Shown piece after piece: positions 2,425 through 63,309 of a DNA stretch of 64,000 nt; positions within the stretch are counted from its first letter, which is position 1, and each line of letters begins with the position of its first letter. Position numbers and translations under genes: made by a program. Under the pieces are notes generated by a model, which searched no databases, was not told the DNA's origin, and worked only from the letters and a program-made list of their open reading frames with translations. The stretch is from Closterium sp. NIES-65 (lineage: Eukaryota > Streptophyta > Zygnematophyceae > Desmidiales > Closteriaceae), in assembly GCA_948144175.1 (NCBI GenBank), contig CANXME010002327.1, positions 620,001 through 684,000 on the forward strand, read 5' to 3'.

Positions 2425-4605
2425 ACACCACAGGAGCCACGTAGCGAGCCACAAGGCCAAGAGGGTACGCAAGGTCAGGTCGAGTGCAGGTCATCAGGTA
2501 CATGAGGCAGCCCACTAGCTCTGGGTGTGGATCACTTGGCTCTACGGACTCGTCCGAAGGTGGAGCTGAGAGCGAGTGGCCTTTAGCCAGAGGAGTGGAC
2601 TGTGGCGAGGACCAGGTGAAGCCGAAGCACTGAAGGACCTGCTGCACTATGTGTGACTGAGTCAGTGTGATGGTGCAGCATGCTCTGTCCCGGGTGATCT
2701 GCAAGCCAAGGTAACTGCGCAGGTCACCCAGATCTGTGCACGTGTGTCTCTTCTACAACTCCGACTTCACAAGGGCAAGAGCCTCAGTGTCAGCAGTGGC
2801 AAAGACCAAGTCGTCGACGTACACGAGGATGTAGAACGGCGGCAGCGAAGTGTCGGTGCGCAGAAACAGGGACGGGTCAGCAGTGGAAGGGGCGAACCCA
2901 AGAGCCGCAAGCGTCGTTCTCAGTGTGTCGTGCTACTCACGAGGCGCCTGGCGGAGACTGTAGACCGGCCGACGGAGGCTCCACTGGGTACCAGGAGGGA
3001 ACGACCCAGTGAAGCCAGGTGGGTGGCGCAGCCAGATCTCCTCGTGCAGACTACACTGTAAGAAGGCTGTGCTGAAGTCCTGAGAGTGAAGCTCGTAGTC
3101 ACGCTGTGCGGCGAAATGCAGGAGCACCCGAAGAGTGGTCATCTTTGGGGTGGGGGAGAAGGTCTGGAAGAAGTCAACTCGTTGTCGCTGACTGAAGCCT
3201 CATGCAACGTAACGAGCCTTGAAGACAGGCGCAGAACCCGGCGGCCGCTTCACCGTGAAAATCCACATGCCTTCGACGATGTTCGCCCCATGAGGGGGAA
3301 CCTCATGGACGTAAGTGCCTTTGGATTTCCAGGATGCCATCTCTGCGTCCATGGCTGACTGCCACTGAGAGGAGTACTCACCCGTGATCGCCTCAGCGTA
3401 AGAACGCGGAGTCGGGATGTCTGGTGCATCTGGGTCTCCCTCAGGGGCAAGCAACATGGCCACGAGATGAGGTACAGTAGTTGCAAGACACTCGAAATCC
3501 TCCTGCCTGTCCTTAAGGACGTCCGTGCCAAGAGCACACTCACCCTCGATGGACGGAGGACAGACAGACTCAGACTCAGCAACAAGACTAGCAACAAAGT
3601 GTAGACGACAGGCAGCAGCAAAGTCAATAGGCTCAGCAACTAAAGCAGACGCAGTAGTGGACTCAAACGAAGGGTCAGTGACAACAGTGGCAAGTAGACG
3701 CGTGACAGTAGGGTGAGTAGCACGAGCGCGGTCAGACTCAGGGTCTGGAACATCATGCAGAGAAGGCACAGGAGGGGACAGCAAGGGAACACACTGCGGA
3801 GCAGAGGAAAGACCTAGAGCCATGAGGTGCGTGCCGGGGACAGCCGGCGGACGCTCAAGAGGAAAACGACGACTAGTACGACTAGTGCGGACAGTGCGAA
3901 TAGGCGAGACAGGACGAGACGCAGGCTCACGATGCTCAGCAAGACCTCATGCCTGCTACGTGTAAGGAGAAAGAGCAGGTAGTGGAGAGCCAGGCTATAA
4001 TGGAAGACTAGTAGAAGATGGGAGGCTAAGAACCTGGCGCAGCATGGAGTCAAGCGGCGGTAGAGACGAAGGTGACGGTGTAGCGAAGAACTGTTATGGC
4101 TGAGCAGTACCACCCGCGCCAGTAGCTCCATCACCTCCTGCAGCTCCAGAACCTCTAGCGCGAGCACCCCCAGCAGCTCCAGAACCTTCAGCGCCAGCAC
4201 CTCCATTACTAGCACCACCAGCAGCAGCACCCCCAGAACCGGCACCTCCAGCCCCAAGGTCTCCAACCTCAGTGTCTCCAACAGCAGAACCCCTAGAACC
4301 GGCACCTCCAGCTCTAGGGTCTCCAACCTCAGGGTCGACAGCAGCACCTCCATGTCCAGTTGTAGCTCCAGCCCCAGCAGCTCCAGTACCTCCAGTACGA
4401 GCACCTCCGGGACCAGCGGGTCCAGGAACTCCAGTAGAAACACCTCCAGTAGCAGAGTCGCCAGCTCCAGTGCTCCCAACGCCACCGCCTCCCGCAGCAG
4501 AGCCCCCAGCTCCAGCAGCGCGACCCTAACGACTAACGTACCACTCACACAGCTACTGTGGGGAGAGAGGGAGACACTGACGAGAGTGCTGCGGCAAGGC
4601 ACCAA
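2425..4605 (-). pseudogene. E2 linker and RT (broken, no RNase H)
   Basis: The Pro/Ala/Ser-rich linker (about 4600-3830) is followed by the pre-RT segment with PDAPDIPTPRSYAEAI, the WIFTVKRPPG block (about 3270) and the RT palm blocks down to LVARYVAP at 2425. RT pieces lie in different frames, for example 3823-3200 against 3142-2920, so frameshifts are present. RNase H and everything 3' of it are lost at the junction with E1. Confidence 0.85.
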
Positions 4606-7879: not shown

Positions 7880-7926
7880 GTGGGCCCTAAAAAAATCGGT
7901 CCTACGGACCTACTGCTCTAATACCA
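7880..7926 (-). promoter_or_regulatory. E2 primer binding site and post-PBS hairpin
   Basis: The minus strand reads TGGTATTAGAGC directly after the LTR (7926-7915), one base from the copia initiator-Met PBS. It is followed by a hairpin GGTCC-GTA-GGACC (7910-7898), a T-run and the block GGGCCCAC. The same order is found in E3, E4, E6, E7, E9 and E11. Confidence 0.85.
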
Positions 7927-18660: not shown

Positions 18661-18753
18661 CACCTGAGGAGCCGTGCTGCTGTCCCTGAGCTGTGTTCCT
18701 CTGCTGCTGACCTACCCGACTCTTCCAGCCCGGTGAGACTTTCAGCTGCTGCC

Positions 18754-21700
18754 ATGGCCACCCCCAATGTTCTTACTTTTGACGCTGAGGGGAGGGCCAT
18801 TGACTTTGCCGTCTGGATTGAAGACCTGCAGCTGTACTTACTGTGTGATGCGATAGATGAGGTCTCTCTCTTTGACTTTGTCTCTGGAGCTGTCCCTGCC
18901 CCGCCTGCTGATGCTGACTCTGCCGTTCGCTCCAAGTGGGCGACCCGCGATGCTGCTGCACGTCTTGCTGTGCGTCGCCACCTCCCTTCCTCTGAGCGTG
19001 CCCACTTTAGTCAGTGCAAGACCGCTCAGGCCTTGTACGACGCTGTAGTTGCACGCTACTCCTCCCCTTCCTCCGCTACCCTTAGCCGCCTCATGCTACC
19101 GTTTCTCTTCCCTGACCTCGCTTCCTTTCCCACTGTCGCTGACCTCGTTACCCACCTCCGCGCTAGTGACTCTCGCTACCGCGCTGCCCTTCCTGCTGAG
19201 TTCCGCGCCGCAAACCCTCCTCCCATGTATATCACTCTCTACTTTCTCGTCACCCGTCTTCCTGAGTCCCTTCGTGTCGTTAGGGACCAGTTTCTCTCTG
19301 TCTGTCCCACCACCCTCACTGTCGACCTCCTTGAGGAGTCCCTGCTAGCGGCTGAGAAGAGTATAGTCGCTGTAGGGGCCTCTAGGGGTGACCCTCGCAC
19401 CCCCATCTTTGAGGGGTGTTCTCCTTCCCCCCTGCTGCCCTCTGTCGCCTCTGCTGCTACGGCCGACCTCGCTGGTTTTGAGTCGGTCGGTGCGGCGTCT
19501 GCCCCCAGCGGCAGACGCCGCTCTGGCAAGGGCAAGGGGGGCAAGGGAGCGGGTGGATCTAGAGGAGGCAGTGGCGGAGGAGGTGGGGGTGGCGGGGGGA
19601 GTGGGGGTGGCGGTGGAGGTGGTGGCGGGAGTGGAGGTACTAGTGGCGGCGGTGGAGGCGGAGGTGGCGGCGGAGGTGGTAGCGGAGGAGGCGGTGGGAG
19701 CGGTGGGAGCGACGGTCCTGGTGGGGGAGGTGGCGGTGGAGACGGGGGTGGCGGTGGAGGCGGGGGTGGTGGTGGAGGCGGGGGTCGGAGTGGCTCGTCC
19801 CAGCGGAGCAGCTCTGGGGGTGGTCAGCGCCAGCAGCAGCAGCAGCAGCAGCAGCACCAGCAGCCGCAGCAGCAGCAGCAGCGCTCTCGCACCGTCCCCG
19901 GCCCTCAGCAGCTCCGTGAGTGGTACTTGCAGCGTCAGCGCGGTGGTGCTCTTGGTCCCTGCCCCTACGTTCTTCGCACCGGTGACCGTGCGGGGGAGAG
20001 GTGTGGAGGCGCCCACACAGCCCGTCGCTGCTTTGGCCGCCTGACCGACGCCTGGCGTCAGCAGTTTCCGGAGGCCGCTGAGATCCCCCGCTGGGGAGAG
20101 CTGTCTAGGGCTGGAGTAGCTATTTATGATCTTGACTTTGATGCTATTCTCTCTGCTATGTATGCTGTGACTGGTAGTGATGAGGATGACTGTTACCGGT
20201 GTTTCCCGCCCGACCCGGGCATTGGTACTGCCGCGTCAGGTACTAGTGAGGCTGCTGCTCTAGGTGCCAGTGCGTCTGTGCTCTCAGGTGCTGGTGAGTC
20301 TGCCCTCTCAGGTACTGTGTCGGCTTCGGCCTCTCACACCTTCACCCTTGACTCTGGAGCGTCTCGCTCCTTCTTTAGGGACCGCACCACTCTCACGCCG
20401 CTGAGTCGGCCGGTTGCAGTGTCCCTGGCTGACCCCTCTGGGGGGCCGGTCCTGGCTCGCTTCTCCACTGTCCTCCCGTGTCCGGCGGCCCCCTCTGGCA
20501 CCCTGACTGGTCTCTACCTCCCCTCGTTCTCGACGAACTTGGTGAGTGGTGCTGACCTCCAGGATGCGGGTGTCCACCAGTTCACCCCTGCTCGTCAGCG
20601 GGTGACCCACTGCACGGAGGAGGATACAGGTCGCCACCTGGCTACGTTTACACGTCGGCCAGGGTCGAGCCTGTACACACTGACCACTGCTTCTCCTCCA
20701 GGTGCTGAGTCTGGTAGGGTCCCTTCGTCTGGTCAGGTGTTTGCTGCAGCGTCCAGGTCTGGTCCTGAGTCTGCCCCCTGCTCGTGTCGTCGTCTGTCTC
20801 ACGAGACCCTCCTCTGGCACCACCGCCTTGGCCACCCCTCCCTGCTTCGGCTCAGAGGCATGGCCTCGCGAGTCCTTGTGTCTGGTCTTCCCCGGTCTCT
20901 CCCTCCCCTTCCTCCGGGCCCTGGCCCCACCTGTGTCCCCTGTGTCGAGGGGCGCCAGCGTGCTGCCCCTCACTCCTCCCAGTTTCCTCCCACAGAGGCC
21001 CCGTTGCAGACGCTTCACATGGACGTGTGGGGCCCAGCCCGCGTCCGTGGACAGGGTCAGGAGCGCTACTTCCTGCTGGTGGTTGACGACTACTCGCGTT
21101 ACACCACAGTCTTCCCCTTGCGCAGCAAGGGTGAGGTCACTGAGGTGCTGATCGACTGGATCCGCGCAGCTCGTCTCCAGCTTCGGAGGAGCTTTGGCTC
21201 TGACTTCCCTGTTTTGCGTCTGCACTCGGACAGAGGTGGAGAGTTCTCCTCCAGCCTCCTGAGTGCCTACTGTCGTGTGCGAGGCATCCGTCAGACCTTC
21301 ACGCTTCCGGACTCACCGCAGCAAAATGGGATTGCTGAGCGCCGCATTGGCATGGTCATGGACGTCGCTCGTACATCCATGATGCATGCGGCTGCTCCCC
21401 ATTTTCTGTGGCCGTTTGCGGTCAGGTACGCTGCGCACCAGATCAACCTCCACCCCAGGGTCTCTCGACCGGAGACCTCCCCAGCCCTGCTGTGGACGGG
21501 GAAGGTTGGCGATGCGTCGGCGTTCCGGGTCTGGGGATCTCGGGCGTTTGTTCGCGACCTGTCTGCGGACAAGCTGTCCCCTCGTGCTTCTCCCTGCGTC
21601 TTCCTGGGGTTCCCCCCCGACGCCCCTGGGTGGCAGTTTTACCACCCCACCTCTCGACGTGTTCTGTCCTCCCAGGACGTCACGTTCGACGAGTCGGTGC

Positions 21701-24642
21701 CCTACTACCGCCTCTTCCCCTACCGCACTCCGTCCCTCCCCCCACCCCCGCTCTTCTTGGTACCAGGTCCCCCCCCGGTAGTCCCCCTCCCCCCTCAGGG
21801 TCCTGCCCCTTCGGGTGTGTCCCAGGTAGACACGGTCGAGCCTGTCGAGGTCACTGGTGACTCTGGTGCTGCTGCGGGAGCTGAGCCTGGGGGTGCGGAG
21901 TCTGGGGGTGCTGAGCCTGGAGGTGCCGAGTCTGGGGGTGCTGAGCCTGGGGGTGCTGAGCCTGGGGGTGCTGTGCCTGGGGGTGCCGTGCCTGGAGGTG
22001 CTGTGTCTAGGGGTGCTGAGCCCGGGGGTGCTGTGCCTGGGGGTGCTTCGTCTCGCCGGGAGCCACTCTCCCCACAGGAGCTGCGTGAGTGGTTTGCCGG
22101 GCGCTGGAGGCGTGCTGCTGGTGCTGGTGGTTCTTCGGCTGCAGAGGGCACTGCTGCTGCGCGCCCCGCCGGTGCTCGTACTGTGGGTGCTGGAGCTGCT
22201 GAGTCTGAGAGTTCTCCTGGAGCTGGTCCTGCTGAGGGTGTTGGCGCTGAGCCTGCCGTTGGCGGCCCGACTGACAGTGCTCCTGGTGCTGCGGCTGGAG
22301 GTTCTGGAGCTTCTGGTGGTGCTGCTGGAGTGGGTGCTCCTGCCGGGGCTGCTGGTGCTGTTCCTGCTGTTTCTAGCGTCGCCGCGCGGCCCCGACCGTA
22401 CTTCGTTCCGCTCCTGCAGCAGGTTCTTGGTCTTACACCTCCTCCTCCTCCCTTAGAGGGTCCGCAGCCTGTCCGGTCACAGCCACAGCTACAGCCTGCC
22501 TCCCCTTTGCCTGCTCCTTCTCCCTACGCTGGTCCGACTGGAGGTCTTACTAAGCGTCGTGAGCCTGCGTCTCGTCCTGTGTCGCCTGTTCGTACTGAGC
22601 GCGCTAGTGGTCGCGGGTCGCGTCAGCGTCCTCCTCCTGTCCCTGGCACGCACCGGATGTCACTGCGTCCGTCCACTGCTCCTCTGCGTGCCCCTTTGCC
22701 TTCTCCTCCTGCTTCCTCTCTTCCTGCTCTTGCCGACCCGGAGTCGGACGCTCTTCGTGCTGCCAGTCCTACTGTCACGCGTCTCCTGGCTACTGCTGTC
22801 ACTGACCCCTCCTTCGAGTCGTCTGCTGCGTCTGCCCTTGTCACTGAGCTTGTCGACTTTGCTGCGCGCTGTCGTCTAGACTACGCTGCTCGTCTTGTCA
22901 GTGAGTCTGAGTCCGCCTGTCCTCCGTCCGTCGGGGGTGAGTGTGCCCTTGGCACGGACGTCCTTGAGGACAGGCAAGAGGAGTTCCAGTGTCTGGCCGC
23001 CGCTTCACCTCGTCTCGCGTCTGTACTGCTAGCCCCTGAGGGAGACCCGGATGCACCAGACATCCCGACTCCGCGCTCTTACGCGGAGGCGATAGAGGGT
23101 CCCTACTCCTCTCAGTGGCAGGCAGCTATGGATGCAGAGATGGCTTCCTGGAAGTCCACAGGCACCTATGTTGACGCTGTTCCCCCTCCTGGGGCAAACA
23201 TCGTCAGTGGCATGTGGATTTTCAGGGTGAAGCGGCCGCCAGGTTCTCCGCCTGTCTTCAAGGCGCGTTACGTGGCTCGTGGCTTCAGTCAGCGGCAGGG
23301 GGTTGACTACTTTCAGACCTTCTCCCCCACCCCGAAGATGACCACTCTTCGGGTTCTGCTACACGTTGCTGCTCACCGTGACTACGAGCTGCACTCTCTC
23401 GACTTCAGCACAGCTTTCTTGCAGGGCAGCCTGCACGAGGAGATCTGGCTGCGTCGCCCACCTGGCTTCACTGGGTCTTTCCCTCCTGGTACCCAGTGGA
23501 GTCTCCGGCGTCCAGTCTACGGTCTCCGCCAGGCGCCACGTGAGTGGCACGACACACTGAGGACTACGCTCGCGGCACTTGGGTTTGCTCCTTCCACTGC
23601 CGACCCGTCGCTGTTTCTGCGCACCGACACCTCTCTGCCGCCGTTCTACATCCTCGTGTACGTCGACGACTTGGTCTTTGCCACAGCTGACACTGCTGGA
23701 CTCGCCTACGTGAAGTCCGAGCTGCAGAAGAGACACACGTGCACTGACCTGGGTGAACTGCGCAGCTACCTTGGCTTGCAGATCACCCGGGACAGAGCAC
23801 GCCGCACCATTACCCTGACTCAGTCACACATGGTGCAGCAGGTCCTTCAGCGCTTCGGCTTCACGTACTCCTCGCCTCAGGCCACTCCTCTGCCTACTCG
23901 CCACTCGCTCTCAGCTCTGCCTTCGGATGAGTCCGTAGAGTCGAGTGGCCCGTTTGCAGAGCTTGTTGGCTGCCTCATGTACCTGATGACCTGCACACGA
24001 CCTGACCTCGCATACCCTCTTAGCATTCTCGCACGCTTTGTTGCTCCTGGGAGACACCGACCAGAGCACATGGCTGCAGCGAAGAGGGTGTTGCGCTACT
24101 TGTGCAGTACGTCGGGCATGGGGCTAGTGCTTGGAGGGCGCAGTCCAGTGGTCCTCACTGGGCACGCAGACGCTTCTTGGGCTGACGACCAGGCTACGCA
24201 GCGGTCGTCACAGGGTTACACCTTCAGCCTTGGTTCCGGCTCTGTCTCGTGGCGGGCTACCCGCTCGTCTTCTGTTCTCGGCTCCAGTTGTGAGGCTGAG
24301 ATCTACGCTGGGGCTATGGCTGCACAGGAGTTACGCTGGCTCACCTACCTGCTGACCGACCTTGGAGAGCAGCCTCGTTCTCCTCCAGTCCTGTACGTAG
24401 ACAACAAGGCCATGCTGGCCTTGTGTCGAGAGCAGCGACTGGAGCACAGAACGAAGCACATTGCTCTTCGCTACTTTCTTGCTCGTGAGCTACAGCAGCG
24501 TGGACAGCTGCGACTTGCGTACGTGGCCTCTGAGGCCAACACTGCTGATGTCTTCACCAAGGCACTTGCGCCTTGTGATCATCAGCGTTGCTGCACGCAG
24601 TTGGGTCTTGTGCCTGTCTTGCCTCACTTGCTCTCCTCTTGA
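18754..24642 (+). CDS. gag-pol: E6 gag-pol polyprotein (1962 aa), all domains intact
   Basis: I chose ATG 18754 (MATPNVLTFD) because E12 and E11 start gag at the same place. An upstream in-frame GTG has no such support. Domains in order: gag core (1-230); Gly-rich tract (about 255-350); Gln tract (about 360-380); PQQLREWY motif (384-391); zinc-knuckle-like C403, C417, H421, C426; protease DSGA (533-536); integrase HHCC (about 680-730) and core D757, D826, E862, which has the D-X35-E spacing; linker with GGAEPGG repeats and a second motif PQELREWF (1107-1114); RT with YVDD (1636-1639); RNase H with D1806, E1847, D1883 and the terminal ADVFTKAL block. The single frame implies gag and pol are made as one polyprotein cut by the protease. 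Confidence 0.97.
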   Translation: MATPNVLTFDAEGRAIDFAVWIEDLQLYLLCDAIDEVSLFDFVSGAVPAPPADADSAVRSKWATRDAAARLAVRRHLPSSERAHFSQCKTAQALYDAVVARYSSPSSATLSRLMLPFLFPDLASFPTVADLVTHLRASDSRYRAALPAEFRAANPPPMYITLYFLVTRLPESLRVVRDQFLSVCPTTLTVDLLEESLLAAEKSIVAVGASRGDPRTPIFEGCSPSPLLPSVASAATADLAGFESVGAASAPSGRRRSGKGKGGKGAGGSRGGSGGGGGGGGGSGGGGGGGGGSGGTSGGGGGGGGGGGGSGGGGGSGGSDGPGGGGGGGDGGGGGGGGGGGGGGRSGSSQRSSSGGGQRQQQQQQQQHQQPQQQQQRSRTVPGPQQLREWYLQRQRGGALGPCPYVLRTGDRAGERCGGAHTARRCFGRLTDAWRQQFPEAAEIPRWGELSRAGVAIYDLDFDAILSAMYAVTGSDEDDCYRCFPPDPGIGTAASGTSEAAALGASASVLSGAGESALSGTVSASASHTFTLDSGASRSFFRDRTTLTPLSRPVAVSLADPSGGPVLARFSTVLPCPAAPSGTLTGLYLPSFSTNLVSGADLQDAGVHQFTPARQRVTHCTEEDTGRHLATFTRRPGSSLYTLTTASPPGAESGRVPSSGQVFAAASRSGPESAPCSCRRLSHETLLWHHRLGHPSLLRLRGMASRVLVSGLPRSLPPLPPGPGPTCVPCVEGRQRAAPHSSQFPPTEAPLQTLHMDVWGPARVRGQGQERYFLLVVDDYSRYTTVFPLRSKGEVTEVLIDWIRAARLQLRRSFGSDFPVLRLHSDRGGEFSSSLLSAYCRVRGIRQTFTLPDSPQQNGIAERRIGMVMDVARTSMMHAAAPHFLWPFAVRYAAHQINLHPRVSRPETSPALLWTGKVGDASAFRVWGSRAFVRDLSADKLSPRASPCVFLGFPPDAPGWQFYHPTSRRVLSSQDVTFDESVPYYRLFPYRTPSLPPPPLFLVPGPPPVVPLPPQGPAPSGVSQVDTVEPVEVTGDSGAAAGAEPGGAESGGAEPGGAESGGAEPGGAEPGGAVPGGAVPGGAVSRGAEPGGAVPGGASSRREPLSPQELREWFAGRWRRAAGAGGSSAAEGTAAARPAGARTVGAGAAESESSPGAGPAEGVGAEPAVGGPTDSAPGAAAGGSGASGGAAGVGAPAGAAGAVPAVSSVAARPRPYFVPLLQQVLGLTPPPPPLEGPQPVRSQPQLQPASPLPAPSPYAGPTGGLTKRREPASRPVSPVRTERASGRGSRQRPPPVPGTHRMSLRPSTAPLRAPLPSPPASSLPALADPESDALRAASPTVTRLLATAVTDPSFESSAASALVTELVDFAARCRLDYAARLVSESESACPPSVGGECALGTDVLEDRQEEFQCLAAASPRLASVLLAPEGDPDAPDIPTPRSYAEAIEGPYSSQWQAAMDAEMASWKSTGTYVDAVPPPGANIVSGMWIFRVKRPPGSPPVFKARYVARGFSQRQGVDYFQTFSPTPKMTTLRVLLHVAAHRDYELHSLDFSTAFLQGSLHEEIWLRRPPGFTGSFPPGTQWSLRRPVYGLRQAPREWHDTLRTTLAALGFAPSTADPSLFLRTDTSLPPFYILVYVDDLVFATADTAGLAYVKSELQKRHTCTDLGELRSYLGLQITRDRARRTITLTQSHMVQQVLQRFGFTYSSPQATPLPTRHSLSALPSDESVESSGPFAELVGCLMYLMTCTRPDLAYPLSILARFVAPGRHRPEHMAAAKRVLRYLCSTSGMGLVLGGRSPVVLTGHADASWADDQATQRSSQGYTFSLGSGSVSWRATRSSSVLGSSCEAEIYAGAMAAQELRWLTYLLTDLGEQPRSPPVLYVDNKAMLALCREQRLEHRTKHIALRYFLARELQQRGQLRLAYVASEANTADVFTKALAPCDHQRCCTQLGLVPVLPHLLSS

Positions 24643-26286: not shown

Positions 26287-26660
26287 TGTTAGTAGATCTG
26301 CACTATGGATGCCCGATTGATCCTGGAGAGGGTTACAGGCGCGTTTTCTTGGGGGGTTATGGGCGCACTGACCCGCTACTGAAACAAGCCCTTTTATCCC
26401 AGTGGTTAGTGGCTGGGATTCTGACATGGTATCAGAACGGTCTCGGGCTCGATTCCCGGTGTATGCACATGTAGGCCGTTGCCGCTGTGCTTAGTCGAGG
26501 GCCTCCCAGTGTGGGGGGGTGTCAGTAGATTTGCACTGTGGATGCCCGATTGATCCTGGAGAGGGTTACACGCGCGTTCGCTTGGCGGGTTATGGGCGCA
26601 CTGACCCGCTACTGAAACAAGCCCTTTTATCCCAATGGTATAGTGGTTGGAATTCTGACA
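26287..26660 (+). mobile_element. T1: 374-bp TRIM-like element with tRNA-like core
   Basis: It has LTRs of 140 bp (26287-26426) and 141 bp (26520-26660), PBS TGGTATCAGAAC (26427-26438), a 93-bp internal region and a seven-G polypurine tract just before 26520. The flanks AGATC (26282-26286) and AGATG (26661-26665) are a 5-bp duplication with one change. It splits the E7 gag C-terminus: the uninterrupted text is seen at 9695-9712 and near 26812. It has no coding capacity, so it would need proteins from elements such as E6 or E8. Confidence 0.9.
26395..26470 (+). promoter_or_regulatory. T1 tRNA-like segment (decayed A and B boxes)
   Basis: Across the LTR/PBS border, TCTGA-CATGGTA-TCAGA forms an anticodon-like arm, and TCGGG-CTCGATT-CCCGG forms a T-like arm. 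The B box GGCTCGATTCC has one mismatch to GGTTCGANNCC. The A-box region at about 26401-26410 has lost a base, while the 3' LTR copy reads TGGTATAGTGG. T1 is a more worn version of T2. Confidence 0.6.
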
Positions 26661-34810: not shown

Positions 34811-36864
34811 GTGAACCTACGTCTCGTCCTGCCTCGCCTACTTGCGCTGTTCGCACGGGTCGCCGTGTTCCTCGTCCGCGTCCTCCTACTATCCCCAGCA
34901 CGCACACTATGGCACTTCGTCCTTCCTCTGTTCCACAGCGTGTCCCTCTGCCGTCTCCTCCTGCGTCCTCTCTTGGTGATGGACTGGACCCTGGGTCGGA
35001 CATATTTCGTGCCGCTAGTCCTACTGTCACACGTTTTCTGCCCACTGCTGTCACTGACCCTTCGTTTGAGTCCACTGCCGCATCTGCTCTAGTTGCTAAG
35101 CTTGTTGACTTTGCTGCCGCCTGTCGTCTCGACTCACCGCTATCTTGTTGCTGAGTCTGATTTTGACTGTCCTCTATCCGTCGGGAGTGAGTGTGCTTTT
35201 GGCACGGACGTCCTTGAGGGCAGGCATGAGGATTTTTAGTGTATTGCAGCTGCTGTACCTCATCTCTTGGCCATGCTGCATGCGCCTGAGGGAGACCCGG
35301 ATGCACCAAACATCCCGACTTCGCGCTCCTACGCAGAGGCGATTACGGGTCCTTACTTCTCTCAGTGGCAGATAGCCATGGATGCAGAGATGGCTTCCTG
35401 GAAGTCCACAGGTGCAAGTGTCCACAGGACGCAATTCCCCCTCCTGGGGAGAACATAGTCGATGGCATGTGGATTTTCAAGGCAAAGCGGCCGCCAGGTT
35501 CTTCGCCTGTCTTCAAGGTTCGGTACGTTGCACGATGCTTCAGTCAGCGACAGGGAGTTGACTTCTTCTAGACCTTCTCCCCTACCCTGAAGATGACCAC
35601 TCTTCGGGTGCTGCTGCACGTTGCCGCTCAGCGTGACTACGAGCTTCACTCTCTTGACTTCAGCACTACTTTCTTACTGGGCAGTCTGCACGAGGAGATC
35701 TGGCTGCGCCGCCCACCTGGCTTCACTGGGTCGTTTCCTGCAGGTACCCAATGGAGCCTCCGGCGGCCAGTCTACAGTCTCCGCCAGGCGCCTTGTGAGT
35801 GACACGACACACTGAGGACGACGCCTGCGGCTCTTTGGTTTGCTCCTTCGTCTGCTAACCCGTCGTTGTTTCTGCACACCGACACTTTGCTGACACCGTT
35901 CTACATCTTTGTGTACGTCAACAACTTGGTTTTCGCCACTGCTCACAGTGAGGGACTGGCCCTTGTGAAGTCGGAGCTGGAGAAGAGACACACGTGCACA
36001 GACCTGGGTGAACTGCGCAGCTATCTTTGCCTGTAAATCATCCGATACAGAGCACGAGACATCATCACCCTGACTTAGTCACACATCGTGCACCAGGTCC
36101 TTCAGCGCTTCAGCTTCACTTGGTCCTCGCCACAGTCCACTCCTCTGCCTACTGGTCACTCGCTCTCAGCTCCACCTTCGGACGAGTCCGTAGAGCCGAG
36201 TGGCCCGTATCCTGAGCTGGTGGGCTGCCTCATGTACGTGATGACCTGCACTCGACCCGACCTTGCGTACCCTCTTAGCATCCTGGCTCGCTACGTTGCG
36301 CCTCGAAGACACCTGCGAGAGCACTAGGAGGCTACCAAGAGGGTGTTGCGCTACTTGTGCAGTAATCAGGCATGGGGCTTGTGCTTGGAGGGCGGAGTTG
36401 AGTTGTTCTCACTAGTCACACAAACGTGTCTTGGGCTGACGACTAGGCTACGCAGCGGTCGTCACAAGGTTACACGTTCAGCCTTGGCTCTGGCTCTGTT
36501 TCTTGGCGGCCTATCTGGTCGTCTTCGGTCCTCAGCTCCAGTTGTGAGGCTGAGATCTACGCCGGAGCCATGGCTGCACAGAAGCTATGCTGGCTCACCT
36601 ACTTGCTGACCGAGTGGCCTCGTTCTCTTCCAGTTCTGTACGTAGACAACAAGGCCGCTATTGCCTTGTGTTAAGAGCATAGATTGGAGTACAGAACAAA
36701 GCACATCACTCTGCAACACTTTCTTGCTTGAGAGCTGCAGCAGCGTGGTCAGCTTTGTCTAGCTTACGTGGCCATTCGGGCCAACACTGCTGATATATTC
36801 ACCAAGGCACTTCAGCCTGGTGATCATCAGAGTTTTTGTACTGTTCTCAGCATTGTGCCTACTT
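34811..36864 (+). pseudogene. E4 RT and RNase H (heavily decayed)
   Basis: RT blocks are spread over several frames: PDAPNIPTSRSYAEAI near 35298, MTTLRVLLHVAAQRDYELHSLDFSTTFLLGS split by stops, and YVNN in place of YVDD near 35914, which removes both catalytic Asp residues. RNase H blocks near 36545 (CEAEIYAGAMA) and 36640 (VDNKAAIAL) follow, then NTADIFTKAL at 36784-36813. T2 interrupts the last codons at 36865. Confidence 0.85.
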
Positions 36865-37003
36865 TGTCAGAATCCCAACCACTAGACCATTGGGATAAAA
36901 GGGCTTGTTTAAGTAGCGGGTCAGTGCGCCCATAACCCCCCAGGCAACCGTGCCTGTAACCCTTCCCTAGGATCAATCGGGGATCACCAGTGGACCTCTG
37001 ACA
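36865..37003 (-). repeat. T2 3' LTR (139 bp)
   Basis: It is identical to 37073-37211 by eye. It contains the A box but has no downstream B box. Confidence 0.95.
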
Positions 37004-37029
37004 CCCCCCCGCATTGGGATGCCCGAAGT

Positions 37030-37104
37030 GCATACACCGGGATTCGAACCCGAGACCTTCGCTCTGATACCATGTCAGAATCCCAACCACTAGACCATTG
37101 GGAT
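37030..37104 (-). promoter_or_regulatory. T2 tRNA-like core with pol III A and B boxes
   Basis: The minus strand gives TGGTCTAGTGG (37097-37087), fitting the A-box consensus TRGYNNARNNG, and GGTTCGAATCC (37050-37040), a perfect B box, 36 bases apart. The D-like stem is GTCT/GGAT. The anticodon-like arm is TCTGA-CATGGTA-TCAGA (37079-37063). The T-like arm is TCGGG-TTCGAAT-CCCGG (37053-37037). The loop has TGG at the anticodon position, and these are the first three bases of the PBS. The flanks do not pair as an acceptor stem, so this is tRNA-like, not a tRNA gene. Confidence 0.7.
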
Positions 37105-37211
37105 AAAAGGGCTTGTTTAAGTAGCGGGTCAGTGCGCCCATAACCCCCCAGGCAACCGTGCCTGTAACCCTTCCCTAGGATCAATCGGGGATCACCAGTG
37201 GACCTCTGACA
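37073..37211 (-). repeat. T2 5' LTR (139 bp)
   Basis: On the minus strand it runs from TGTCAGAGGTCC to GGGATTCTGACA. Its last 25 bases hold the A box and the 5' half of the anticodon-like arm. Confidence 0.95.
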
Positions 37212-37216
37212 TACTT

Positions 37217-37416
37217 TGCCTCCCTTGCTCACTTCATAACTTTGCTTGTACTGTGATATTTTACATATACCTGCATGTGAACTCTGTGAAATGGTCTTGT
37301 GGCCATCAGCTTGTGCTCGGAATGTGTGGTAACATCGTGATCCACCCTGAGCTTCCTTGGCTTTGCTTGACTGGTCTTGTGACCATTTGTTCTCCCCCAC
37401 TTTGCCTATGGGGGTG
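37217..37416 (+). promoter_or_regulatory. E4 3' UTR with PPT hairpin
   Basis: The text resumes after the T2 duplication with the end of pol, then TGCATGTGAACT, TGTGATCCACCCTGAGC and the hairpin CCCCCA (37394-37399) paired to TGGGGG (37409-37414), directly before the 3' LTR. Confidence 0.8.
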
Positions 37417-37490
37417 TGTCAGAATGTTACGTTGTGTAGGTTGTATTGGGGCAGCCCACAAGGGGTATAACCCAAATTAGGGTTAGCATT
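37417..37490 (+). repeat. E4 3' LTR, first part
   Basis: It begins TGTCAGAATGTTACG and aligns with the E4 5' LTR at 15772. It is cut after AGCATT by E8. GCATT (37486-37490) is the left target duplication of E8. Confidence 0.88.
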
Positions 37491-38317
37491 TGTTGGTGCA
37501 ACCTTACGGTTTGCACTTGGCTTGTTGTCCGTGTGCGTGAATGTGTGTGTGCATGGAATGGTATAAGGGCATAGGATAATATATATTTCATGCTTATAAT
37601 AGTGTGTGAATGATGGGCCATGATGTCAAGTGTGTGTGTCAAGTCAATAGAGAATTATCGCTAGTCGCGTGTAACGTGGCCATTTTGTCTGTCCCGCGCG
37701 GTTTCTATTTTGTCGTGCGCGGTTTGTATTTTGTCGCTTGTCGAACGTTCGGCATGTCACAGGTGTGTGCAGCAGACCTAACAAGAACTCAAGGATGAGT
37801 TTGTGATGAAGAACCCGAGTCTTGGTTTCAAGCTTCAAGTGATTTCGAAGCTCGCCAAAAGGGTACACTTGGATATTGAAGATAGTTACATTACAATGTG
37901 TAGTGTAACATTTCTATTGGTGTAGACCCTTGTGAAGGGTAGGTTCAAGACCCTTCTTGGTTGGGGACAGTGTGGCACTGTTCCACATTACTGTACCTCG
38001 GCTCTTGGGGTTTGTAGGAGCTGGGAGTCACTCCCAACTCGTAACTCTTTCTAACTCTTCCTATTGTGTGTTCTAAGACTATGTTGCTGCCATAGTGCCG
38101 TTCGTTCAAACCAACGCTATGTTGTCAATTCGTAATGAAATCGTGCAATCTAAATTGCTTACTGTAGGCAACGTTAAGCCGCTCTAGATCCAAGTTGAAT
38201 AAAGTCATTTGGAGTTGTGAGCAGATCGCTATGAACGTTTAAAGCCACTGTGCAGAAATCCGACTATGCACTCTATCCTTCGTTTTAGGCACATTGAAGC
38301 CTACTGTGACTATAAGA
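37491..38317 (+). repeat. E8 5' LTR (827 bp)
   Basis: It begins TGTTGGTGCAACC. The end reads TATAAGA where the 3' LTR has TATAACA, so the terminal CA has mutated here. A TATA-rich block near 37580-37600 could hold the promoter. Confidence 0.92.
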
Positions 38318-57323: not shown

Positions 57324-60300
57324 TCAAGAGGTGAGCAAGTGAGGCAAGGCAGGCACAAGACCCAGCTGAGTACAGAAGCGCTGATGATCACAAGGCGCAA
57401 GTGCCTTGGTAAAGATATCAGCAGTGTTGACCTGAAAGGCCACGTACGCCGCAGCTGACCACGCTGCTGTAGCTCACGAGCAAGGAAGTAGCGAAGAACA
57501 ATGTGCTTCGTTCTGTGCTCCACTCTCTGCTCTTGACACAAGCCAGCATGGCCTTGTTGTCTACGTACAGCACTGGAGGAGAACGAGGCGGCTCTCCAAG
57601 GTCAGTCAGCAGGTAGGTGAGCCACCGTAGCTCCTGTGCAGCCATGGCCCCAGCGTAGATCTCAGCCTCACAACTGGAGCCAAGAACAGAAGACGAGCGG
57701 GTAGCCCGCCACGAAACAGAGCCAGAAACAAGGCTGAAGGTGTAGCCCTGTGACGACCGCTGCGTAGCCTGGTCGTCAGCCCAAGAAGCGTCTGCATGCC
57801 CAGTGAGGACCACTCGACGTCGCCCTCCAAGCACAAGCCCCATGCCCGACGTACTGCACAAGTAGCGCAACACCCTCTTCGCTGCAGCCATGTGCTCTGG
57901 TCGGTGTCTCCCAGGAGCAGCATAGCGTGCCAAGATGCTAAGAGGGTATGCAAGGTCAGGACGAGTGCAGGTCATCAGGTACATGAGGCAGCTAACAAGC
58001 TCTGGATACAGGCCACTCGACTCTACGGACTCATCCAAATGCAGAGCTGAGAGTGAGTGGCGAGTAGGCAGAGGAGTGGCCTGAGGCAAGGAGTACGTGA
58101 AGCCGAAGCGCTGAAGGACCTGCTGCACCATGTGTGACTGAATCAGGGTAATGGTGCGGCGTGCTCTGTCCCGGGTGATCTGCAAGCCAAGGTAGCTGCG
58201 CAGTTCACCCAGGTCTGTGCACGTGTGTCTCTTCTGCAGCTCGGACTTCACGTGGGCGAGTCCAGCAGTGTCAGCAGTGGCAAAGACCAAGTCGTCGACG
58301 TACACGAGGATGTCGAACGGCGGCAAAGAAGTGTCGGTGTGCAGAAACAGCGACAGGTCGGCAGTAGAGGGAGCAAACCCAAGAGCCGCAAGCGTAGTCC
58401 TCAGTGTGTCGTGCCACTCACGCGGTGCCTGGCGGAGACCGTAGACTGGCCGGCGGAGGCTCCACTGGGTGCCAGGAGGAAAAGTCCCAGTGAAGCCAGG
58501 TGGGCGCCGCAGCCAGATCTCCTCGTGCAGGCTACCCTGCAAGAAAGCAGTGATGAAGTCAAGCGAGTGAAGCTCGTAGTCACGCTGTGCGGCTATGTGC
58601 AGTAGCACCCGAAGAGTGGTCATCTTCGGGGTGGGAGAGAAGGTCTGAAAGTAGTCAACTCCCTGCCGCTGTCTGAAGCCACGAGCCATGTACCGCGCCT
58701 TGAAGACAGGTGGAGAACCTGGCGGCCGCTTCACCCTGAAGATCCACATGCCACTGACGATGTTCGCCCCAGACGGGGGAACCGCGTCAACGCAGGTGCC
58801 TATGGACTTCCATGAAGCCATCTCTGCGTCCATAGCTTCTTGCCACTGAGAGGAGTAGGGACCCTCTACGGCCTCCGCGTGAGAGCGCGGAGTCGGGATG
58901 TCAAGTGCATCCGGGTCTCCCTCAGGGGTAAGCAGTACGGACACGAGATGAGGTGAAGCAGCAGCCAGACACTGGAACTCCTCCTGCCTGTCCTCAAGGA
59001 CGTCCGTGCGAAGAGCACACTCACCCCCGACGGACGGAGGACAGACAGACGCAGACTCAGCAACAAGACTAGCAGCGTAGTCTAGACGACAGTGAGCAGC
59101 AAAGTCGACGAGCTCAGCAACTAGGGCAGACGCAGCAGTGGACTCAAAGGAGGGGTCAGTGACGACAGTAGCAAGGAGACGCGTGACAGTAGGACTGGCA
59201 GCACGAAGAGAGTCCGACTCCGGGTCGGCAAGAGCAGGAAGAGAGGACTCAGGAGGAGAAGTCAAAGGGACACGCAGAGGAGCGGTGGACGGACGCAGAG
59301 ACATCCGGTGCGTGCAAGGGACTGGAGGAGGACACTGACGCGAACCGCGACCACTAGTGCGAGCAGCATGAACAGGCGACGCAGGACGAGACGCAGGCTC
59401 ACGACGCTCAGCAAGACCTCCAGTAGGACCAGTGTAGGGACAAGGAGCAGGCAGTGGGGAGGCCGGTGGTAATAGTGACTGTGACTGGACAGGCTGTGGA
59501 CACTCTAAGGGAGGAGGAGGACCAAGAACCTGCTGAAGGAGCGGAACGAAGTACGGCCGAAGCCGTGCGGCGACTCCAGACACAGCAGGGACACCACCAA
59601 CACCCCCAGCGGCAGTACTAGCGCCAACAGCACCTCTAGCTCCAGTACCTCCAGCAGCACCAGCAGCACCCCCAGCAGGACCGCCGCCAAGACTGACAGC
59701 AGTAGCCTCAGCGCCAACACCCTCAGCAGCTTCAGCTCCAGTCGTACCCGCAGGCCCGGCAGCTCCAGTACTCCCAGGGCGAGCACCTCTAGGACCGGCG
59801 GCAGTAGCACCCTCAGCAGCCAAAGAAGCTCCAGCTCCAGCAATACGCCTCCAGCGCCGGGCAAACCACTCGCGCAGCTCCTGTGAAGAGAGGGGCTCCC
59901 GCCGAGACGAAGCACCCGGAGAACCTCGAGGCCCAGCACCACCAGACGCCACACAAGCAGGCCCAGCAGCCGCAGGCTCCGCACCCCCACGCTTAGTAGC
60001 TCCAGACGTGGCACCCCCAGGCTCAGCACCTCCAGACGTAGCACCCCAAAGCTCAGCACCCCCAGGCGTAGCACCTCCACGCTCAGCACCCCCAGGCTCA
60101 GCACCCCCAGCAGTACCACCCGTAGGCCCAGCACCCCCAGGCGTAGCACCCACACGCTCAGCACCCCCACAGTCAGCACCCCCAGGCTCAGCACCCCCAG
60201 CAGCACCAGAGTCACCAGTAACCTCGACAGGCTCGACTGCGTCTACCCGGGACACACCTGAAGGGGCAGGACCCTGAGGGGGGAAGGGGTCTACCGGAGA

Positions 60301-62213
60301 GGGACCGGGCACAAGGAAGAGCGGTGGCGGGGGGAGGGACGGAGTGCAGTAGGGGAAGAGGCGGTAGTAGGGGACCGACTCGTCAAACGTGACGTCCTTG
60401 GAGGACAGAACACGACGAGAGGTGGGGTGGTAGAACTGCCACCCTGGCGCGTCAGGGGGGAAGGCAAGGAAGACGCAAGGAGCAGCACGAGGGGACAACT
60501 TGTCCGCAGACAAGTCGCGGACAAACGCTCGAGATCCCCAGACACGGAACGCAGATGCATCGCCAACCTTCCCCGTCCACAACAATGCCGGGGAGGTCTC
60601 CGGCATGGAGACCCTGGGGTGAAGGTTGATCTGATGCGCCGCGTACCGAACCGCAAACGGCCACAGAAAATGGGGGGCAGCCGCATGCATCATAGACGTA
60701 CGGGCGACGTCCATGACCATGCCAATGCGGCGCTCAGCAATCCCATTTTGCTGTGGTGAGTCCGGAAGCGTAAAGGTCTGGCGGATGCCTCGTGCACGAC
60801 AGTAGGCTCGCAGAAGGCCAGAGGAGAACTCTCCGCCTCGGTCAGAGTGCAGACGCAGAACAGGAAAGTCCGAGATGAAGCTCCTCCTGAGCTGGAGACG
60901 AGCTGCGCGGATCCAGTCGATCAACACCTCAGTGACATCACCCTTGCTGCGCAAGGGGAAGACTGTGGTGTAACGCCAGTAGTCGTCAACCACCAGCAGG
61001 AAGTAGCGCTCGTGACCCTGTCCACGGACGCGGGCCGGGCCCCACACGTCCATGTGAAGCGTCTGCAGCGGGGCCTTTGTCGGGGGAAACTGGGAGGAGT
61101 GAGGGGCAGCCCGCAGCCGCCCCTCGACACAGGGGACGCAGGTAGGGCCAGGCCCCGGAGGAAGGGGAGGGAGGGACCGGGGAAGACCAAAGACAAGGAC
61201 ACGGGAGGCCATGCCGCGGAGACGAAGCAGGGAGGGGTGACCAAGGCGGTGGTGCCACACGAGAGTCTCGTGAGACAGCAGGCAACACGAGCAGGGGGCA
61301 GACTCAGGACCAGACCTGGACGCTGCAGCAAACAGCTGACCCGACGCAGCTACCTGACCAGACGCAGGGACAGAAGGAGACCCAGTGGTCAGGGTGTACA
61401 GGCTCGACCCCGGCTGACGCGTAAACGTGGCCAGGTGCTGGCCTGAGCGATCGTCCGTGCAGTGGGTCACCCGCTGACTCGCAGGAGTAAACTGGTGAAC
61501 CCCCGCATCCTGTAGGTCACCACCACTCACCAAGTTTGTAGAGAACGAGGGGAGGTAAAGACCAGACAAGGTGCCAGAGGGGGCCGCCGGACACGGGAGG
61601 ACAGTGGAGAAGTGAGAAAGGACAGGACCCCTTGAGGGGATTGCCAGGGAGACTGCAACCGGCCGACCAAGCGGCGTGAGTGTGGTGCGGTATAGAAAGA
61701 AGGAGCGAGAAGCCCCTGAGTCAAGGGTGAAGGTGAGGGAGGCCGAAGCCGACGCGGTACCTGAGAGCACAGACTCACCAGCACTTGAGGAAGCAGACGC
61801 AATGGCACCTAGAGCAGCAGCCTCACTGTCACCTAGAGCAGCAGCCTCACCAGTACCTAGAGCAGCAGTCTCAATGCCCGGTTTGGGCGGAAAACACCGG
61901 TAACAGTCACCCTCATCACTAATAGTCACATCATACATGGCAGCAAGAATAGCATCAAAGTCAAGATCAAAGATAGCTACACCCGCCCTAGATAGCTCAC
62001 CCCAGCGGGGGATCTAAGTGGCTTGCGGGAACTGGTGACGCCAAGCGTCCGTCAGGCAGCTAAAGCAGCGCTGGGTGGGGTGTGCACCCCCACACTGCTC
62101 ACCCGCGCGGTCGCCGGTGCGTAGGACATAGGTGCACGGACCAGTACCCCCACCCCGCTGACGTGCAGCGTACCACTCACGGAGCTGTTGAGGGGGGGGG
62201 ATATCCCGAGAGC

Positions 62214-62247
<34 letters not shown>

Positions 62248-62259
62248 CTACTGCTGCTG
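57324..62259 (-). pseudogene. E12 gag C-terminus and pol, almost complete
   Basis: A 1506-codon frame (61938-57418) holds protease DSGASR, HHCC integrase domain, MDVWGP, HSDRGGEF, NGIAERR, the linker with GGAE repeats and SPQELREWF-like motif (SSQELREWFARRW), RT with YVDD (about 58303-58292) and RNase H with GHADASW and CEAEIYAG. Upstream in frame, TAG 62016-62014 replaces GAG. A one-base deletion near 57548 and a short deletion near 57445 shift the end, while the expected terminator is TGA 57326-57324. All visible catalytic residues are present. Confidence 0.92.
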
Positions 62260-63309
62260 CTACTGGCGCTGACCACCACCGGAGCCGCCCCGCTGCGTAG
62301 CGCCACCCCGACCAGCTCCACCTCCTCCGTCGCTGCCTCCTCCACCACCGCCACCTCTGCTACCTCCGCTCCCACCGCCACTGCCTCCGCCGCCTCCGCC
62401 TCCACTGCCGCCACCGACACCTCCACCCCCGCCACCACTCCCACCGCCACCCCCACTCCCTCCGCCGCCTCCACCGCCGCCTCCACCACCCCTGCTAGCT
62501 CCTCCAGCGCCCCTGCCCCCCTTGCCCTTGCCAGAGCGGCGTCTCCCGCTAGGGGTAGACGCCGCACCGACCGACTCAAGACCAACGAGGTCGCCCGCAG
62601 CAGCAGAGGCGACAGAGGGCAAAAGGGGGGAGGGGGAACACCCCTCAAAGATGGGGATGCGAGGGTCACCACGAGAGGCTCCTACAGCGACTATGCTCTT
62701 CTCCCCTGCTAAGAGGGCCTTCTCGAGGAGGTCAACAGTGAGAGTGGTGGGAAAGACTGAGAGGAAGTGGTCCCTGACTACACAAAGGGAGTCAGGGAGG
62801 CGGGTGACTATGTAGTAGAGAGTGATGTACATGGGGGGGGGGTGGGGGTTCTTGGCGCAGAACTCAGCAGGAAGCGCAGCGCGGTAGCGAGTGTCACTAG
62901 TGCGGAGGTGCATAATGAGGTCAGCGACTGTGGGAAAGGCAGCAAGGTCAGGGAAGAGGTACGGTAGCATGAGGCGGCTCAGTGCAGCAGTGGCAGGGGA
63001 GGAGTAGCGTGCAACTACAGCGTCGTACAAGGTCTGAGAACTCTTGTACTTACTAAAGTGCGCACGCTCAGAGGTAGGGAGGTGGCGACGCACAGCAAGA
63101 CGTGCAGCAGCATCGCGCGTGGCCCACTGTGAGCGAACAGTGGCGTCAGCATCAGCAGCAGGGGCAGGAGAAGCACCAAAGGTGAGGTCAAAGAGAGAGA
63201 GGCCGTCGGCCCTATCGCACTGTAAGAAAAGCTGCAGGTCATCTATCCAGACGTCAAAGTCAATGGCCCGACCCTCAGCGTCAAAAGCGAGGACACTAGG
63301 GGTAGCCAT
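62260..63309 (-). CDS. E12 gag N-terminal part (349 aa)
   Basis: ATG 63309 (MATPSVLAFDAEGRAID) starts a frame with FDVWIDDLQLFLQ, WATRDAAARLAVRRHLP, FSKYKSSQTLYDAVVARYSS, a Pro-rich stretch before MYITLYY, and the Gly-rich tail from about residue 265. It closes at TAG 62262-62260 in the CAG tract. Three more TAG codons occur within the next nine codons (62250-62248, 62247-62245, 62235-62233), all in the same frame. The product would be a gag without its zinc motif. Confidence 0.85.
   Translation of the reverse strand: MATPSVLAFDAEGRAIDFDVWIDDLQLFLQCDRADGLSLFDLTFGASPAPAADADATVRSQWATRDAAARLAVRRHLPTSERAHFSKYKSSQTLYDAVVARYSSPATAALSRLMLPYLFPDLAAFPTVADLIMHLRTSDTRYRAALPAEFCAKNPHPPPMYITLYYIVTRLPDSLCVVRDHFLSVFPTTLTVDLLEKALLAGEKSIVAVGASRGDPRIPIFEGCSPSPLLPSVASAAAGDLVGLESVGAASTPSGRRRSGKGKGGRGAGGASRGGGGGGGGGGGSGGGGGSGGGGGGVGGGSGGGGGGGSGGGSGGSRGGGGGGGSDGGGGAGRGGATQRGGSGGGQRQ

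Follow-up and report, generated by a model that had tools for sequence, protein, structure and literature searches.

A TRIM of Closterium sp. NIES-65 with a putative tRNA-type RNA polymerase III promoter divided by the primer binding site

Results

T2 is a complete TRIM in a Copia-rich region

T2, a 347-bp element in the 64-kb stretch of DNA analyzed here (the window), is a complete and real TRIM of a family designated A and one among thousands of TRIM copies in this genome. In T2, a consensus A box at the end of the 5' LTR and a consensus B box in the first part of the interior flank the primer binding site (PBS), a layout that is real and beyond chance and whose function in RNA polymerase III (pol III) transcription is likely, judging from the sequence. 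The full reading, in which T2 is a TRIM with a type 2 pol III promoter that is split by the PBS and read by pol III, is the one that we favor, with modest confidence.

On the minus strand, the 5' LTR (37211-37073) is followed by the PBS (37072-37061), by an interior that reaches 37004, where a run of seven G residues ends, and by the 3' LTR (37003-36865) (Table 1). The LTRs (37073-37211 and 36865-37003) are identical at 139/139 bp and enclose 69 bp of interior. T2 has no coding capacity; it is too short for gag or pol and holds no open reading frame (ORF) of at least 250 amino acids. Short direct LTRs, absence of coding capacity, a length below 1 kb, an iMet PBS, a polypurine tract (PPT), and a short target site duplication (TSD) are the features by which it is classified as a TRIM, and the same classification in an earlier note on this DNA was borne out by the identical 139-bp LTRs, the iMet PBS, the G7 tract, and the TACTT TSDs. 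Six paralogous Copia stretches in the window continue across the position of T2 without the element, and these empty sites together with the TACTT flanks show that T2 was inserted into a Copia element, in its 3' end region.

Table 1. Features of T2 and of its tRNA-like segment (window positions)
Feature	Positions	Strand	Remarks
T2, complete family A TRIM	36865..37211	-	347 bp; within a Copia element, close to its 3' end
5' LTR	37073..37211	-	139 bp; TGTCAGA...TCTGACA
3' LTR	36865..37003	-	Same sequence as 5' LTR; A box present, B box absent
PBS	37061..37072	-	TGGTATCAGAGC; complementary to 3' end of the genome's tRNA-iMet plus CCA
Polypurine tract	37004..37010	-	G7
TSD	36860..36864	.	TACTT
TSD	37212..37216	.	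TACTT
tRNA-like segment	37030..37104	-	75 nt; spans LTR end, PBS, and interior
A box	37087..37097	-	TGGTCTAGTGG; exact
Anticodon-like arm	37063..37079	-	LTR end pairs with PBS
T-like arm	37037..37053	-	
B box	37040..37050	-	GGTTCGAATCC; exact
CAA	37113..37115	-	Candidate pol III start, -11 to -9 before tRNA-like segment (compare PMC11700998, available text)
TTTT, 5' LTR	37105..37108	-	Immediately 5' of tRNA-like segment
TTTT, 3' LTR	36897..36900	-	Proposed pol III terminator

These structures were also weighed under a reading in which T2 is a dimeric or tandem SINE taken for an LTR element. The TG...CA ends of the LTRs, the iMet PBS, the G7 PPT, the 5-bp TSDs, and the empty sites all speak against such a dimer, even though the RNA proposed below has a tRNA head resembling that of a SINE and tandem LTR-interior arrays exist in this genome; on the strength of the TSD, PBS, PPT, and empty sites the reading was rejected, and we regard it as highly improbable.

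Copia elements fill most of the window, with long ORFs and a glycine-rich gag at 18733-24642 and 57418-63309. The window also holds a second TRIM, of family B, at approximately 26308-26660 on the plus strand, in which the PBS is TGGTATCAGAAC and the B box is mutated to GGCTCGATTCC.

A type 2 promoter layout across the LTR/PBS border

The A-box/B-box pair was found once on the two strands of the 64-kb window, namely in T2 (0.03 expected per shuffled window; 200 shuffles), and it arose in 2/5000 shuffles of the T2 element. Its B box is confined to the interior, and the 3' LTR has none. With a gap of 36 nt between the boxes, T2 agrees with type 2 promoters, in which box A lies at about +12 to +22 and the boxes are 30 to 40 bp apart (PMC7279448, available text). 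In plant tRNA genes, transcription often begins at a CAA up to about 10 nt upstream and stops at a run of four or more T, and the CAA of T2 (-11 to -9) lies at the edge of the functional range of -1 to -10 reported in the available text of the same source (PMC11700998). The A box, B box, anticodon-like arm, and T-like arm described for T2 in the earlier note are present, both boxes being exact and the anticodon-like arm reading TCTGA-CATGGTA-TCAGA. The claim of a tRNA-type pol III promoter across the LTR/PBS border stands as a description of sequence architecture, from which use by pol III is predicted.

T2 itself is not a tRNA gene, a candidate that was rejected because ARAGORN and Rfam were negative and the fold was not a cloverleaf. 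ARAGORN reported zero tRNAs in the 64-kb window and zero in nine loci with members of families A, B, and C, and Rfam gave nothing around T2 (36600-37500) at E ≤ 1, 5S included. For the 96-nt stretch of T2, seven weak matches were listed at E ≤ 10, none of them a tRNA, with two lower matches of the tmRNA clan beyond these; the tRNA-related weak matches in this stretch at the same threshold were one of 8.5 bits to the T arm of a tmRNA and one of 7.1 bits to a permuted tmRNA. In the best fold, the partner of the acceptor-like 5' strand is the end of the D region and no cloverleaf is formed, and the 75-nt segment has no acceptor stem. A tRNA-like fold found no support in T2 and some support in family C (see below). 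No nuclear tRNA donor of the D arm of families A and B was found among the best 63 of 18457 RF00005 candidates; judging from scores and contigs, the 63 that were scored are probably mostly plastid-like. For the D region of T2, tRNA-Glu presumably fits about as well as tRNA-Pro.

Thousands of copies and three families

Similarity searching of the 874-Mb assembly (2400 contigs) with T2 gave at least 41 matches that were 98 to 100% identical, with the best 40 of 812 candidates scored. In complete counts, the 25-nt LTR end that includes the A box has 5855 exact copies in the genome, and an exact PBS followed by a B box within 31 nt occurs at 3,375 sites (280 + 3095), compared to 0 for reversed control patterns. 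A genome search for the unit, which had been proposed earlier as a check, returned a high copy number, with A and B boxes present in other copies.

Among the loci examined, three main groups were distinguished: A (to which T2 belongs), B, and C. Family B, with LTRs of mostly 141 to 142 bp and an interior of mostly 93 bp, has much of its LTR in common with A, and its PBS-to-B-box distance is three bases shorter. Family C has LTRs of 85 to 97 bp that are unrelated to those of T2, and an interior of mostly 182 to 215 bp; PBS and T arm/B box are all that it has in common with T2. The PBS-then-B-box order is present in all three families, and in both A and B the order is TTTT, consensus A box (end of the LTR), PBS, and interior B box. 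Of 81 distinct PBS-plus-B contexts, eight were set aside as "other," including L036 (which reads as A) and L108 (which reads as C).

Perfect 5-bp TSDs flanked 23/26 complete copies of family A, 14/20 of family B, and 24/34 of family C, counts that are favored by the choice of boundary (a script took the best TSD among TG starts) and that include pairs with shared TSDs (such as L018/L020 and L109/L110), possibly duplicated loci and not all separate insertions. Copies without a recognized 3' LTR end were excluded from these counts and from the TTTT counts below. Many family C copies (L082-L107) carry the PBS TGGTCTCAGAGC in place of TGGTATCAGAGC, with one mismatch to iMet. Three distinct decayed copies were left out of the family count (the L066 group, at 690 and 1942, and the L067/L116 group); these are old, degenerate TRIM-like elements with unrelated LTRs, a PBS and B box, and A-box-like LTR ends.

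Conservation stands out in TTTT and at the A-box position

Conservation was compared between 37 A and 20 B copies, with gaps counted as mismatches and the B copies L081 and L082 dropped. Mismatch rates were 0.033 in TTTT, 0.050 in the A box/D part, and 0.055 in the LTR end; the two halves of U3 differed at 0.293 and 0.135, the spacer from PBS to B box at 0.467, and the remaining interior at 0.805 and then 0.113. Rates were low also in the PBS (0.002) and the T arm (0.071), but many copies had been preselected by these patterns, so that PBS and B-box conservation in A and B is not independent. The spacing from PBS to B box differs between A and B, and the boxes themselves are kept.

For family C, 27 close copies were compared with 11 diverged copies after L108 had been dropped, 34 of the 38 copies (query included) having come from whole-element similarity. 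Mismatch rates were 0.032 in TTTT, 0.037 in the A-box position/D part, 0.055 in the PPT, 0.084 in the PBS, 0.120 and 0.164 in the two acceptor strands, 0.186 in the T arm (well conserved in the preselected A and B copies and moderately in C), 0.230 in U3, and 0.296 in the interior. By these rates, conservation of TTTT and of the A-box position is conspicuous in both lineages. The earlier note had asked whether other copies carry the A and B boxes and whether the arms are conserved in excess of the rest of the element: the boxes were present in other copies, an excess was found for the A box between A and B, and the corresponding segment of C was equally conserved but departs from the A-box consensus.

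Family C has a parallel order with a short tRNA-like form

In family C, TTTT is followed by a conserved tRNA-like LTR end, the PBS, and a B box, parallel to the order in A and B. The C form is a short tRNA-like structure of about 65 nt with the PBS in place of the anticodon arm, and its 7-bp acceptor stem, formed by one strand from the LTR and one from the interior, had 7/7 pairs in 29/38 copies with G-T pairs included; the number falls to 3 in some others, L050 and L062 among them. The segment at the A-box position, TGGGTAGCGAGGTGTTA, is conserved and off the A-box consensus: the A-box pattern is absent from C copies L057, L060, L061, and L041 and present in T2 and in B copies L031 and L055. 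In L057, the region 5' of the PBS scores at most 0.89 for an A box, a value that 351/5000 shuffles reach and whose register overlaps the acceptor strand; T2 scores 1.0, reached by 22/5000 shuffles. The gap between the boxes in C is about 26 nt (L057), below the 30 to 40 of type 2 promoters. L057 has a CAA at -13 to -11, where C copies such as L060 have CAC instead. The Rfam tRNA model covers L057 end to end over LTR, PBS, and interior at a nonsignificant 20 bits (cutoff, 29; E = 4.4), and the mascRNA-menRNA model matches the same place at 22.8 bits (cutoff, 42.5; E = 0.88); no match of the tRNA or mascRNA type was found in L050, L041, L031, and L055. Since the A-box consensus is lacking, C offers weaker support than A and B for a working split promoter.

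These comparisons bear on a reading in which the elements are ordinary TRIMs transcribed by pol II, with U5, PBS, and leader kept for gag packaging, reverse transcription, and integrase and with the boxes as a resemblance or a relic. Every LTR element is constrained in its PBS, LTR ends, and PPT, conservation of U5 may also serve packaging or integration, and the TCTGA/TCAGA pairing of the anticodon-like arm follows from the LTR end plus the PBS; the missing tRNA fold of T2 and the missing consensus A box of C fit this reading as well. It is countered by the retention of the boxes while PBS-to-B spacing varies between A and B and by the unrelated family C, which repeats the order of TTTT, tRNA-like conserved LTR end, and B box and whose acceptor stem matches in most copies. 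Elsewhere in the window are four PBS-like sites, of which one is exact and three have a single mismatch; none of them has a B box, which also speaks against the pol II reading. We consider pol II transcription of this kind unlikely, though by no means negligible, and prefer the split pol III promoter.

TTTT sites and the proposed transcription unit

In the printed copies of families A, B, and C, TTTT mostly adjoins position 1 of the tRNA-like part on its 5' side. Within the stretch of 35 to 53 nt that holds this site, TTTT was present in 46/49 5' LTRs and 47/49 3' LTRs of families A and B and in 32/33 5' LTRs and 33/33 3' LTRs of family C. Elsewhere between the PBS and the end of U3, inner TTTT was depleted in A and B (4/49 copies, versus 15.4 expected from base shuffles) and not in C (8/33, versus 7.4 expected). 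The genome's own iMet genes have TTTT at most 40 nt downstream in four of the five read, and in two of these five (L119 and L120) it follows the tRNA part directly.

Most likely, reading of T2 by pol III would start in the 5' LTR and extend as far as the 3' LTR TTTT. TFIIIC would bind both boxes, A in U5 at the end of the LTR and B in the initial bases of the interior, and pol III would start just upstream, at or near the CAA/TTTT of the 5' LTR, proceed through the tRNA-like head, the interior, the PPT, and U3, and terminate at the TTTT of the 3' LTR. The predicted RNA would carry an R of about 4 to 12 nt, which in T2 would be AAGCCCTTTT with a start at CAA and about 4 nt with a start 11 nt before the A box.

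Another possibility is that pol III transcribes the short tRNA-like head alone, with the replicating RNA coming from pol II or from read-through. TTTT lies directly 3' of the tRNA-like part in nine C copies (L050, L059, L060, L062, and L109-L113), as in the two iMet genes, and in these copies an early transcript stop would be expected, so that a full-length pol III RNA of this C form would need read-through. The LTRs of L050 and of L060 are 98.9% identical, which indicates that this form moved recently. Such a TTTT is absent from T2 and from the amplified C form, and the depletion of inner TTTT in A and B copies likewise runs counter to transcription of the head alone, which we hold to be improbable relative to full-length reading by pol III.

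Primer tRNA and a candidate Copia partner

Of 25 genome sites that match an iMet motif, five were read (L119-L123), and 5/5 were tRNA-Met(CAT) by ARAGORN; we take these five genes to match land-plant iMet, which makes a streptophyte host probable. They represent two isodecoders that differ in one T-stem pair next to the acceptor strand (CCTGG/CCTCG before CTCTGATA). T2 is complementary over 14 nt, 2 nt past the PBS, to the CCTCGCTCTGATA isodecoder (L122 and L123, CCA added), and a family B copy extends its complementarity to the same isodecoder; C copies L057 and L050 are complementary over 13 nt to the other one. We considered the B box as an extended PBS, that is, as antisense of the iMet T arm; exact complementarity stops at 12 to 14 nt, and the stretch after the PBS in family C further resembles antisense iMet by eye.

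LTRs that follow Copia 3' ends in the window begin with TGTCAGA (24840, 37417, and 50210), as do those of T2, and the LTR before the site at 7926 (minus strand) ends with TTCTGACA, again as in T2. Copying of the predicted RNA would take the LTR route, with iMet priming on the PBS in the anticodon position and with proteins supplied by a Copia element with similar LTR termini. Searching IMG/VR with the Copia protein of the window gave four pattern matches, none of which was confirmed.

Discussion

The split promoter of T2 would give an RNA with a SINE-like tRNA head, of which U5 is the tRNA 5' half. Such an arrangement could have originated when a PBS arose within the anticodon region of a tRNA-headed pol III RNA; the split of the promoter follows automatically from such an event, because everything 5' of the PBS becomes U5 and hence LTR, and a solo LTR lacks the promoter, since this is divided among LTR, PBS, and interior. 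We tentatively put forward, as one joint proposal that is more doubtful than the split promoter of T2 itself, a class of LTR elements with a SINE-like pol III RNA (tRNA head and oligo-U end) and the PBS at the anticodon position, in which the promoter would exist only at the LTR-interior junction, solo and 3' LTRs would be silent, R would be about 4 to 12 nt, the layout would have arisen at least twice (A/B and C), and the origin would lie in the emergence of a primer site within a pol III RNA with a tRNA head.

The idea of a pol III-type TRIM is itself already published, for Helenus (Kojima 2024) and for Cassandra. As described in the available text of PMC10886601, Helenus comprises TRIMs whose LTR contains A and B boxes of tRNA origin, and TRIMp3 is Kojima's term for TRIMs with pol III promoters, such as Helenus and Cassandra (5S). 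Helenus, which occurs in plants and fungi, resembles T2 in its tRNA-derived boxes, PBS, PPT, and 5-bp TSDs, and a Selaginella family is close to T2 in size (LTR, 120 bp; interior, 85 bp); its tRNA fold is often not functional, a Copia partner has been proposed in fungi, and up to thousands of LTRs are reported (PMC10886601, available text). According to the same text, Helenus differs from T2 in having the entire promoter within each LTR, solo LTRs included (PMC10886601). T2 is set apart by that description: its A box belongs to the LTR and its B box, beyond the PBS, to the interior, and this interior position of the B box places T2 outside the Helenus definition. The layout of T2 fits TRIMp3, as a promoter of the kind derived from small-RNA genes is present in sequence (A and B boxes that match the consensus, spaced as in a tRNA and conserved between families A and B). 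The "separate case of pol III capture" suggested in the earlier note is thus not the first, Helenus already having tRNA-derived TRIM promoters (PMC10886601, available text), and what stands is a variant layout.

Cassandra shares with T2 the TRIM structure, a pol III promoter, the PBS TGGTATCAGAGC, a terminator in the LTR, and tandem arrays, and differs in that its 5S rRNA promoter lies entirely in the LTR and a tRNA-like part is absent (PMC7215508 and PMC10853983, available text). Its R is very short, 18 bp as cited by Kojima (PMC10886601, available text). The 5S rRNA sequence in the LTR that characterizes Cassandra was not found in T2, where Rfam gave no match at E ≤ 1 over 36600-37500. tRNA-headed SINEs are like the proposed RNA of T2 in their tRNA-like head and internal boxes. 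SINEs are mobilized by target-primed reverse transcription of LINEs and have no LTRs, PBS, or PPT; T2 differs from them in its LTRs, PBS, PPT, and 5-bp TSD. The plant TRIMs of Gao et al. (2016), reported also in Selaginella and algae, are like T2 in size, LTRs, and PBS, and in the main text of that paper no word starts with tRNA, pol III, or polymerase III (PMC4717578, available text). Among the open-licence papers listed, judged by listing and the beginnings of abstracts, none was seen to describe a PBS-split promoter, and a Helenus family so built, for example in Selaginella, may exist in supplementary data. As far as our searches went, a promoter divided among LTR, PBS, and interior is new within this literature.

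The layout of T2 adds a promoter arrangement to the few known LTR elements of pol III type. It suggests a route from a SINE-like RNA to LTR replication, in which a primer site in the tRNA head makes the 5' half an LTR, and reading it as a split promoter predicts defined RNA ends, an R of 4 to 12 nt, and silent solo LTRs. Screens for tRNA sequence solely inside LTRs would miss B boxes adjacent to the PBS.

Two kinds of composite structure were seen among the copies. Tandem LTR-interior-LTR arrays with a period of about 209 or 235 bp were found in L016 and on contigs of this genome (G000) at C43:1848515-1849009 and C10:183903-184168, as is likewise known for Cassandra. On the reverse strand of L029, with the PBS at about 1265, a Copia-like LTR (TGTCAGAATATG...CTCTGACA) is joined exactly at the PBS to the interior and 3' LTR of a family B element; over about 95 nt, this LTR has 72 to 80% similarity to stretches that lie behind Copia 3' ends in the window. 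The hybrid suggests co-packaging with Copia, as far as its sequence goes, and later recombination could have produced it too. The hybrid is followed by a further PBS and forms part of a tandem array.
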